Shown: positions 34,009-41,059 of the stretch, piece by piece | How the letters are laid out: each line of letters opens with the position of its first letter | Position numbering within the stretch: the first letter of the stretch is position 1 | NCBI GenBank assembly: GCA_016214955.1 | Contig: JACRMN010000001.1 | Span: 62,001-126,000, forward strand | Source of the DNA: Deltaproteobacteria bacterium | GTDB taxonomy: Bacteria; Myxococcota; Myxococcia; Myxococcales; Anaeromyxobacteraceae | Direction: 5' to 3' | DNA length: 64,000 nt | Made by a program: the position numbers and the translations under genes | The notes under the pieces: model-generated | Database searches by the model: none | Seen by the model: the letters and a program-made list of their open reading frames with translations, nothing else | What the model was told of the DNA's origin: nothing

Positions 34009-34892
34009 CCCGAGCCCTCCTGCTGCTGCCGCTGGTGCTCGCCGCCGGGCCGTCGCTGGCCCAGACCCGCGCCGCGGCCGGCGTTCACCCCGACCTGCGC
34101 CGGGCCTCGGCCCGCTTCGAGTTCGGCGCCTGGGCCGAGGCGGCCGGCATCGTGCAGCAGTACCTGGCCGCCCACCCCGCTCCCCCGGAGCAGGAGGCGG
34201 TGCTCGCCTACCGCATCCTCGGCATCTCCGAGTGGCACCTGGGCGACAGGGCGCACGCCCGCGCCGCCTTCGTGGCCCTGCTCTCCGAGGACCCCGACTA
34301 CAGGCTCGATCCCTTCCTGGTGCCGCCCCCCATCGTCGAGTTCCTGGAGGAGGTGCGGCGCGAGCACGAGCCCACCCTGGGCCCGCTGCGGGAGCAGAAG
34401 CGGATGCTGCGCGAGCAGGAGCGGCTGGCGGACGAGGCGCGGCGCCGCCTGCTGGCCGAGGAGCGAGCCCGCACCGGCCCGCCCAGCAAGGTGGTCCGGG
34501 TGCAGGAGCGGGTCTACGCGCTCAACTGGCTGCCCTTCGGCGCCGGCCAGTTCCAGAACGGCCAGACGGGCAAGGGCACGGCGTTCGCCGCCGGCGAGCT
34601 GGCGCTGGGAGCCATCAACGTCGCCGCCATCGTCGTCCACGACCAGATCATCAACGACCCTGCCAACCGCTGCGTCCCCTCGGAGGCGGGCTGCGAGGCC
34701 AGCGGCTACAAGTCCACCGCCCGCAGCCGGCTCCGCCTGGTGGACGCGGTCAAGTACACCTCTGCCGGCCTCTTCTGGGCGCTGTACGGGCTCGGGGTCT
34801 ACGACGCCCACCGCAACTACGTCCCGCGCATCGAGACCGAGATCACGCCCCGCGAGGCGGGCGTCACCGTGTCGCTGCGCTGGGACTTCTAG
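34005..34892 (+). CDS. Exported TPR-like protein of the kinase cluster
   Basis: A 295-residue protein with a signal peptide (LLLLPLVLAAGPSLA). Residues ~30-110 form TPR-like helices (FEFGAWAEAAGIVQQYL ... AYRILGISEWHLGDRAHARAAF). A charged helix near 120-155 (EQKRMLREQERLADEARRR) leads to a C-terminal part with two possible membrane or hydrophobic stretches (GELALGAINVAAIVVHD; YTSAGLFWALYGLGVYDA). It may connect envelope events to the kinase; this is inference from co-translation: its GTG overlaps the kinase stop. No known family is assigned. Confidence 0.75.
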   Translation: MTRALLLLPLVLAAGPSLAQTRAAAGVHPDLRRASARFEFGAWAEAAGIVQQYLAAHPAPPEQEAVLAYRILGISEWHLGDRAHARAAFVALLSEDPDYRLDPFLVPPPIVEFLEEVRREHEPTLGPLREQKRMLREQERLADEARRRLLAEERARTGPPSKVVRVQERVYALNWLPFGAGQFQNGQTGKGTAFAAGELALGAINVAAIVVHDQIINDPANRCVPSEAGCEASGYKSTARSRLRLVDAVKYTSAGLFWALYGLGVYDAHRNYVPRIETEITPREAGVTVSLRWDF

Positions 34893-34900
34893 GAGCCGCC

Positions 34901-36741
<1,841 letters not shown>

Positions 36742-36745
<4 letters not shown>

Positions 36746-37278
36746 GAGCCGCGCGCTGCCCTGCCTGGCTTTCGGCGTCGCTGCTGCTGCTCGCCGGCTG
36801 CCCCCTGCCCCAGGCGCTCCCCGAGACCGTGGCCGGCGGCACCGGCGGCTTCGGGCCGCGCATCGCCTTCGAGCTGGTCGCGCCCCAGTCCACCTTCGTG
36901 GACGTCGGCAAGGCCTGCGCCACCCCGCCCCGCTTCGACCTGCACGCGACGGTGGTGGACCGGGACCAGCTCGAGGCGGTGAAGGCCCGCTGGTTCGTCG
37001 ACTACCACCCGGCGACCAACTTCGGCATCGCCCGCCAGGACGACGCGGCCGGGAACGGCCAGGACTTCCTCCGCCCCCTGCCGTCCTTCGCCTACGTGCT
37101 CCAGGACGGGGCCGGGGAATACCCGGTGCACGTGGTCGACCTGGTGGTCTCGAACGGCTTCAAGGACCTGGACCTCTCGGCCGACGCCCTCCCCAACCGC
37201 ATGCCCGTGCCCGGCCGCGACACCCAGACCTTCCGCTGGGTCTTCCGCTACGTGGACAGCGGCGGCAGCTGCCCCTGA
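36742..37278 (+). CDS. Small lipoprotein of the kinase/FHA cluster
   Basis: A 178-residue lipoprotein with lipobox LLAGC near residue 20. The mature part is Pro/Asp/Val-rich and may be one Ig-like beta domain (FELVAPQSTFVDVGKAC ... FRWVFRYVDSGGSCP); two Cys could form a disulfide. No homologous family is recognised. The ATG overlaps the upstream stop (ATGA) and GAGGAGG precedes it, so it belongs to the same operon and may be an envelope target or sensor. Confidence 0.75.
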
Positions 37279-37282
37279 GGCG

Positions 37283-37810
37283 CTACCGGACCTGCCCCAC
37301 CGCCTGGCGCGCGTGAGCCAGGGCCTCGGCGGCGGCGTTGGCGAGGTCGCCCTCCTCCTGCGCGAAGCGGTTCACCTGGGCCTGGTAGGCCCGGTGGAGC
37401 GCCAGCATCGCGTCGCGCGCCGCCGCCAGCTCGGTGCGCTCCTTGTAGCCCTCGCGGTCCGAGGCGTCGAGCCGGCAGCGGTCGGTGAGATCGTCGACCT
37501 TCCTCTCCCAGATGCGGGCCCACGCGTTCCAGGTGGCCAGCGGGTCCTTGCCCTCGAACTCGGCTCCCAGGGCCCAGGCTCGCTCGTTCTGCTCGCGGTA
37601 GAGCTCCTCCAGGTCGCCGAGGCAGAGCCGCAGCGCGGCCCGGGTGGGCAGCTCGCCGGAATGGGGCGGCCGCGGCGGCCCCTTGAGGTGGCGGGCGACG
37701 CTGAAGATGAGCAGGCCGATCCCGAACAGCGTCACGGCGAAGTAGGTGACCCACAGCGCCGCGCGGTACGGGCGGAGGCGGGGGTCGCGGCCTGGCGGGG
37801 ACGTCGGCAC
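37283..37810 (-). CDS. Small membrane protein, unknown
   Basis: A 175-residue protein with one membrane helix near residues 17-40 (LWVTYFAVTLFGIGLLIFSV) and a C-terminal helical domain of ~125 residues (LCLGDLEELYREQNERAWAL ... RDAMLALHRAYQAQVNRF) with coiled-coil character. No known family. The GTG at 37810 is chosen because the extra 77 upstream residues are low-complexity and overlap the inverted-repeat region; no strong ribosome site is seen. It converges with the lipoprotein gene, 4 bases apart. Confidence 0.7.
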   Translation of the reverse strand: MPTSPPGRDPRLRPYRAALWVTYFAVTLFGIGLLIFSVARHLKGPPRPPHSGELPTRAALRLCLGDLEELYREQNERAWALGAEFEGKDPLATWNAWARIWERKVDDLTDRCRLDASDREGYKERTELAAARDAMLALHRAYQAQVNRFAQEEGDLANAAAEALAHARQAVGQVR

Positions 37811-37860
37811 CGCGCGACTCTGCCATCGGGGCGGGGGCAGCGTCCACGGGGTGTGGTGGG

Positions 37861-38070
37861 GAGCGATTGCAGATCCGAAATCGCTCTGCACGGATGCAAT
37901 GCCGGCGGACTGCACCCGGAGGCTGTGACCTCCTGTCGCGCCCGAAAAGGCAGGGGAATTCACCTGGAGGGGCGCTGGCCTACCACTTGCTAACACGTAA
38001 GGTGAGAAGCGCATCGAAGGCCACGAGGGGACCCCCCGCACCTCTCTCGCCTCGATTGCGCTTCTTTTTG
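37861..38070 (+). ncRNA. Candidate structured small RNA with terminator-like 3' end
   Basis: Part of the only gene-free stretch over 300 bases (37811-38135). It is visibly AT-richer than the neighbours. On the plus strand it holds GAGCGATT/AATCGCTC (37861-37868, 37879-37886), GGAGG/CCTCC (37918-37922, 37929-37933), GCGCCC/GGGCGC (37938-37943, 37970-37975) enclosing CAGG/CCTG, and a last stem AGAAGCGCA (38005-38013)/TGCGCTTCT (38057-38065) followed by TTTTTG. The T run makes sense only for a plus-strand transcript, and no plus-strand gene lies just upstream. I found no convincing promoter. A regulatory or repeat element is the alternative. Confidence 0.35.
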
Positions 38071-38135: not shown

Positions 38136-39911
<1,776 letters not shown>

Positions 39912-39939
39912 CGCGCCTTCTACCACGCACCTCCCACGT

Positions 39940-39968
39940 TTGACGGCCCTGCCGGGGCCGTCTATACA
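39940..39968 (+). promoter_or_regulatory. Consensus-like promoter with an 8-bp palindrome in its spacer
   Basis: TTGACG (39940-39945) and TATACA (39963-39968) are 17 bases apart. The arms GACGGCCC (39942-39949) and GGGCCGTC (39955-39962) form a perfect inverted repeat around a 5-base centre and fill the space between the two hexamers. A transcription start near 39975 would lie almost on the ATG at 39977, so the mRNA would be leaderless. Confidence 0.6.
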
Positions 39969-39976
39969 GCCCGCGA

Positions 39977-41059
39977 ATGGCCGGCAAGAGAGCGAAGAGG
40001 GCGCCGCAGGCCACCGCGCGCAAGCCGGCGCGCCGCGTGCTGGGGAACGATCCCTTCGCGCGGGGAGCGGCACCGAGGATGGAGCGGGAGGAGGCGACTC
40101 CGACCGCGACTCCGACCCCTACCCCGACCCCTACCCCGACTCCGACCGCGACCTCGACCCCGACCTCGACCCCGACCTCGGTCTCGACCGAGACGTCGTG
40201 GAGCGGAGAGCTTCAGGATGCACTCGGCCTGCTGCTGCCCGCGCTCCGGGCGCGCCTGACGAGCCTCTCCCGGCTCTGGCGACTCGGGGAGCCGGCCGCG
40301 CCCCTCGACCCGCACGGCATGGACCCGTCACTGCTGGAGCGGGCCGCGCCGCTCCTCGACTTCCTCTACCTGACCTGGTGGCGGGTGGAGGTGAGGGGGG
40401 CAGCCGCGCTGCCGGCTGGGCCGGTGGTGGTGGTGGCCAACGGCTCCGGGGGTGTGCCCTGGGATGCGCTGGTGCTGCGGCTCGCCTACCGGCGCGAGAG
40501 CCCGGGCCACCGCGACCTGCGGCCGCTCGTCGACGCCTCGGTGCTCCAGCGGCCGATGGTCGGCGCCGCGGCGCGGCGCCTGGGCGCCGTCGAAGCCACG
40601 CCCGAGAACGCGCGGGCGGTGCTGCGGGAGGAGTCGGCCCTGGGCGTCTTTCCCGAGGGGCCGGCCCCGCACCCCTGGCCGCAGCGCTACCGCATCGGCG
40701 CCTTCGGCCGGGGCGGATTCGCCAAGATCTCCCTCCGCGCGGGCGCCTCGATCGTCCCCTGCGCCATCGTCGGCAGCGAGGAGGCCAGCCCGCCACTCGA
40801 CCGTCCCGGATTCCTGGCGGACGCGCTGCGGCTGCCGCTCCTGGCCTCCGTGCCCGGCGTTCCGCTGGGCCCGCTGGGCGGGCTCCCCCTGCCCTCGCGC
40901 TGGACGCTCACCTTCGGCGCGCCCATCGCCACCGGGGCGCTGGGCCCGGACGCGGCCGCCGATCCGCAGGCGGTGGCGCGCCTCACCGGCGAGGTCCGGG
41001 AGCGGCTCCAGGCACTGCTCGACGCGGGCGTTGCCGCCCGCCGCTCCGTCTTCCTGTAG
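39977..41059 (+). CDS. Acyltransferase-like protein with Thr-Pro repeat linker
   Basis: A 360-residue PlsC/lysophospholipid-acyltransferase-like protein. A basic N-terminal segment (~35 residues) is followed by a Thr/Ser-Pro repeat tract (~40-75). The domain shows [30 protein letters not shown] and [14 protein letters not shown], typical of the family; but the HxxxxD motif has NGSGGVPWD, so the His is missing. It may therefore be inactive or work differently. No ribosome site is seen; the promoter places the start next to the ATG. It converges with the desaturase gene. Confidence 0.75.
40095..40190 (+). repeat. Imperfect hexamer repeat coding Thr/Ser-Pro tract
   Basis: About 95 bases of CCGACC/CTACCC/CGACCT-type hexamers read in frame as alternating Thr/Ser-Pro/Ala. 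Repeat units vary at two positions, so it is not a perfect tandem. The same hexamer family occurs at 59764-59850 and, outside genes, at 24351-24390. Confidence 0.7.

Follow-up and report, generated by a model that had tools for sequence, protein, structure and literature searches.

A predicted sigma-54 small RNA of the Pxr kind beside mutL in Anaeromyxobacteraceae

In Myxococcus, multicellular development is gated by Pxr, a well-known small RNA of recent origin. Pxr is controlled by pxrR and pxrK (PMC5684412), and its origin has been placed inside the suborder Cystobacterineae (PMC5684412, PMC8538405, PMC11928866). Either a C-to-A change in the loop of stem-loop SL1 or deletion of this loop abolishes Pxr function (PMC5684412, PMC5568312), and Hfq has been reported to be absent from sequenced myxobacteria (PMC5568312). 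In mycobacteria, the small RNA 6C/B11 uses the C-rich loops at the tips of its hairpins to pair with the G-tracts of ribosome-binding sites (PMC10470900).

The locus described here lies in a 64-kb window, meaning the whole stretch of DNA that was analysed, from a member of the Anaeromyxobacteraceae, the family that includes Anaeromyxobacter sp. PSR-1, A. oryzae, A. soli, A. terrae and A. oryzisoli. To our knowledge, this family is not known for fruiting bodies. The locus occupies the roughly 310 nt of intergenic DNA that separate a small membrane-protein gene (37283-37826, no Pfam family, start uncertain) from mutL (38136-40073, with its stop at 38136 and an uncertain start). As a sequence-only reading of this DNA had claimed, both genes are encoded on the minus strand, mutL being the convergent neighbour of the predicted RNA. 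No plus-strand gene lies upstream of the terminator within the intergenic stretch, which agrees with the earlier claim that the terminator serves no known gene, and the GC content of about 66%, against roughly 70-81% in the surroundings, bears out the unusual base composition. The sequence-only reading had taken this composition as a possible sign that the stretch is what remains of a mobile element. We give this next to no probability, as the lower GC content is accounted for by the regulatory DNA in the stretch, a looser pattern search for additional copies in the same genome returned the mutL locus as the sole match, the same locus beside mutL is occupied in 16 of 20 cases across the family, and plasmids gave zero matches. 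On the far side of the membrane-protein gene, the window carries an FHA-GAF-AAA-HTH sigma-54 activator gene (34883-36745, plus strand), which keeps its synteny with mutL across the family. Behind it comes a short gene, likewise on the plus strand, that begins with a lipoprotein-like signal (34883-37278 for both genes).

The RNA signal resides in the 3' hairpin, that is, in the last ~70 nt, since the entire 215-nt stretch folds at z -2.4 relative to shuffled sequences, whereas positions 38002-38070 folded alone (69 nt) reach a minimum free energy of -33.0 against -18.9 +/- 3.1 kcal/mol in shuffles (z -4.5, 0/200). The 9-bp stem described earlier on the plus strand is exact: AGAAGCGCA (38005-38013) pairs with TGCGCTTCT (38057-38065). 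The 4-bp stem past a bulge is there too, as a TCGA/TCGA pairing beyond a bulged T. The complete plus-strand hairpin spans 38004-38066 and runs into T5 (TTTTTG), so that the 3' arm of the terminator stem together with T5 covers 38057-38069. At its top, the apical stem GAGGGG/CCUCUC (38025-38046, plus strand) holds the loop ACCCCCCGCA, in which a run of six C (38032-38037) is the predicted pairing seed. With the start placed 12 nt past the C of the -12 element and the end at the T-tract, the predicted small RNA is ~69 nt long (38002-38070, plus strand), and it is backed by its fold, by the covariance models R1 and R2 and by covariation. The candidate had originally been drawn as one 210-nt RNA at 37861-38070 with at least four paired inverted repeats. 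These boundaries did not hold: 37861-38000 constitutes enhancer and promoter, three inverted repeats were found, and the 5' repeat (37856-37891) is a DNA dyad region containing the enhancer sites rather than RNA structure. What did hold is the proposal of a trans-acting small RNA, which as a prediction is well supported by synteny, sigma-54 promoter, dyads, covarying hairpin and a T-tract confined to the plus strand. When the window was scanned with Rfam, the sole match was a chance mir-207 hit, and a scan for sigma-70 promoters and terminators gave none, its loop limit ruling out a hairpin like 38004-38066.

Upstream of the hairpin, TGGCCTACCACTTGC (37976-37990, plus strand) is a putative -24/-12 promoter of the form TGGC-N7-TTGC, the sigma-54 consensus being TGGCAC-N5-TTGC. 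The motif alone is weak as evidence, with 7 matches in the 64-kb window against 1.6 expected. Its core GGC-N8-TTG is kept in all 16 mutL-locus orthologs, and in every one of them the C-run lies 52-57 nt past the promoter start. Three copies from genus g3 have TTGA instead of TTGC as the -12 element, and the mutL-locus copies of this genus show no T-tract directly after the hairpin. Two tandem dyads precede the promoter start by ~110 and ~90 bp (near -109 and -90), ~20 bp apart: TTGCAGATCCGAAA (37867-37880, plus strand), whose place and spacing are kept in 16/16 orthologs, and, 19 bp past it, CTGCACGGATGCAA (37886-37899, plus strand), each matching TTKCA-N4-TGMAA at 9 of 10 positions. Allowing at most one mismatch, the motif occurs three times in the whole window, two of these at this enhancer. 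Sites with at least 8/10 matches number 33 in the 16 upstream regions on which the motif was also defined, compared with 2.4 +/- 1.5 (maximum 9) in shuffles; an independent test comes from the loci linked to pxrR, from pxr and from G188, a genome of another class, where the motif is found again. A promoter with -24 GG and -12 GC, enhancer sites and an own terminator, the marks of a sigma-54 small RNA, can all be recognised at the sequence level, and we consider it very likely that the locus is a sigma-54 small-RNA gene. At the promoter level only, it resembles the Qrr RNAs of Vibrio, in which an NtrC-type activator, LuxO, drives a sigma-54 small RNA from upstream sites; as is generally known, Qrr RNAs have another structure, depend on Hfq and use another enhancer motif.

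Conservation at this position was followed in two ways. A BLAST search of 60 relatives with the stretch as query detected the hairpin in four of their genomes, all of the same family; a match at L006 was an unrelated GC-rich stretch with neither promoter nor C-loop and was taken as chance. When the region downstream of mutL was read in 20 Anaeromyxobacteraceae loci, 16 proved to have a sigma-54-like promoter followed by a hairpin with a C-run. At the remaining four loci (G007, G011, G012, G014), the stretch between the genes has collapsed, and the mutL-locus RNA, lost in 4 of 20 loci, is therefore not essential there. In the 16 orthologs the stem of the C-run hairpin is stronger than in shuffles (0/300), and the apical stems vary (GAGGGG/CCUCUC, CCUGGA/UCCAGG, CGGUA/UACCG, CGGCAU/AUGCCG) around a constant run of six to nine C. 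In a MAFFT alignment of 23 sequences made without structure, 88.8% of cells pair, compared with 26-53% when the register is slid, and 10 of 19 pairs show changes on both sides, the pairs having been picked by eye from the known structure. The R2 alignment, which was fitted to the structure, gives 94.1% of cells paired and double changes in 15 of 22 pairs. In both alignments the hairpin therefore covaries among relatives.

Searching with R1, the covariance model of the mutL-locus hairpin, uncovered a second RNA type, which most of the family and further families of the order possess. Its promoter and tandem upstream dyads are the same, its hairpin is of the same kind, with the loop GGUCCCCCCCCGCC, and a T-tract is again present. 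It is flanked by an NtrC-type activator gene on one side and by a small receiver gene on the other; in Anaeromyxobacter, this sister RNA lies between the PxrR gene and a gene for a stand-alone receiver domain of ~110 aa (L018, L029 and other type-B loci, for example L018:1141-1575). R2, built from both RNA types, matched in several families of the order and in one genome of another class, G188 (~40% GC). There, directly downstream of a PxrR-type (NtrC-type) activator gene, TGGCATTATATTTGC and two perfect (10/10) TTTCATATATGAAA dyads, which stand 20 bp apart, precede a hairpin with a C9 loop. Because promoter and dyads are not part of R1 or R2, they confirm the model matches independently. Two weak matches, L180 (G012) and L184 (G148), lack both dyads and a correctly placed promoter, and were taken as chance. 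C-loop RNAs also occur in multiple copies per genome (L037, L039, L171 and L190), in tandem in G025 and G040, several times in G044 and as five copies of the pxr type in G061. G188 contains a second C8-loop hairpin (L196:1440-1560, G188:C126) with a terminator-like T-run and a very similar loop, GGTTTCCCTCCCCCCCC, and with neither sigma-54 promoter nor dyads.

For comparison with Pxr itself, pxr loci were located in 44 genomes of the order by a pattern from the 3' end of M. xanthus pxr (primer sequences, PMC5684412). Myxococcus-type loci have tandem dyads at about -111/-92 (in the four loci examined), a sigma-54 promoter and an SL1 with a C7 loop. The mutL RNA shares with Pxr (RF01812) the sigma-54 promoter and the upstream tandem enhancer dyads, a C-run loop (ACCCCCCGCA in its apical stem, compared with GGUUCCCCCCC in Pxr SL1, GGUUCCCCCCCACC) and the presence of a PxrR ortholog in the same genome. 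It differs in being one hairpin with a built-in terminator, in contrast to SL1-SL3 of Pxr, of which SL2 and SL3 are absent here, and in its place at mutL rather than beside pxrR/pxrK. The Rfam model RF01812 has no match in the window at E up to 10, and none in the sister RNA at L018 or the distant one at L183 (G188), while a Myxococcus-type locus scores 129 bits. Rfam scans of the window likewise had no match to 6C/B11, which belongs to another phylum and has two C-loop hairpins instead of one, and shared ancestry is not suggested. We know of no sigma-54 promoter for 6C/B11. The layout common to mutL RNA, sister RNA and pxr also bears on a simpler explanation, by which this strong hairpin, standing with its T5 between mutL and the next gene, merely terminates or insulates adjoining transcripts and no regulatory RNA is made. 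This is very improbable given that mutL is oriented the opposite way, that only the plus strand has the T-tract, and that the C-run is kept along with promoter and enhancer dyads at fixed spacing.

The activator beside the second RNA type is, judged by sequence, the ortholog of PxrR. PxrR of the present genome has as its best match in a Myxococcus-type genome the gene immediately upstream of pxr (63%, versus 52% for the second-best paralog), and the PxrR-type proteins group in a single clade (support 100/99), outside which the best matches of G007 and G012 fall. In the present genome, the PxrR gene follows a histidine-kinase gene on another contig than the mutL RNA and has no RNA beside it; of the RNA family, this genome yielded only the copy at mutL. 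At L170 (G000:C12:52000-62000), a selB-like gene, a GAF/PAS-type histidine kinase gene and PxrR stand in a row, adjoined by nuo genes on the opposite strand. As nuo genes directly adjoin PxrR where the RNA is missing, the receiver gene seems to have been lost as well (G000, G005, G006, G015). PxrR is encoded in 14 of the 16 family genomes that are at least 90% complete, and each of the 14 has at least one such RNA, at mutL, linked to pxrR, or both. Only the mutL copy occurs in G005, G006, G010, G015 and the present genome, and only the pxrR-linked copy in G011; G007 and G012, both at least 90% complete, have no PxrR and neither RNA. On the strength of this co-occurrence and the shared dyads, we think with good confidence that PxrR would be the activator of the mutL-locus RNA. 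Instead, the same RNA could be driven by the FHA-GAF sigma-54 activator, whose gene lies at a distance of 1.2-1.9 kb, given that this gene is syntenic with mutL in genomes where both can be placed and that activators often adjoin their own targets. This appears improbable: the dyads are identical in kind to those at pxrR-adjoining loci and at pxr, and the FHA-GAF gene is kept in G007, G012, G011 and G014, all of which have no mutL RNA, while it is PxrR that tracks the RNAs.

Taken together, we regard it as likely that the mutL locus holds a self-contained gene for a Pxr-like small RNA: PxrR would activate it, and the C-run of its single-hairpin product would pair with G-rich ribosome-binding sites. 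In the mechanism we propose, phosphorylated NtrC-type PxrR, switched by its own kinase, would bind the two dyads ahead of the promoter and drive sigma-54 RNA polymerase from 37976-37990. The product would be one long hairpin ending in its own terminator and displaying six C in the apical loop, and this C-run would base-pair with G-rich Shine-Dalgarno stretches of several mRNAs, blocking their translation without Hfq. For the pairing step as such, which is supported by the conserved C-run, the inactive SL1 loop mutants, the reported absence of Hfq and the similar action of 6C/B11 loops, we lean only slightly towards acceptance. A C-tract-binding regulatory protein might occupy the loop in place of an mRNA; a homopolymer loop that stays constant while the stems vary would suit a protein-bound motif, and a target search for G7-N3-12-ATG in the AT-rich genome G188 (8 matches, 4 in the control) gave no convincing gene, one match being the antisense of another C8-loop hairpin. 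No C-tract-binding regulator is known to us in this group. Protein binding therefore seems rather unlikely, pairing of C-run loops with ribosome-binding sites being an established mechanism (6C/B11, PMC10470900).

RNAs of this kind are not in Rfam, and we found no paper linking Pxr to Anaeromyxobacter RNAs, the 2014 survey of Chen et al. lying outside the search; the claim of a wider and older family therefore rests on the present analysis. The distribution suggests that RNAs of the Pxr kind are older and more widely spread than the literature says. On balance, we favour a scenario in which PxrK/PxrR, the TTKCA-N4-TGMAA dyads and C-run-loop RNAs would be one ancient regulatory module that the phylum possessed before fruiting-body development arose, the Pxr of Myxococcus would be a late three-stem-loop elaboration of it, and the mutL RNA would be a copy kept independently after loss of the pxrR-linked copy. 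With Anaeromyxobacter and another class sharing activator, enhancer and C-loop, the ancestral job was probably not the control of fruiting bodies. In agreement with the inactivation of Pxr by the loop mutation, the wider family also suggests that the C-run is the working part, and its one-hairpin versions offer a simple setting in which targets may be sought by conservation.
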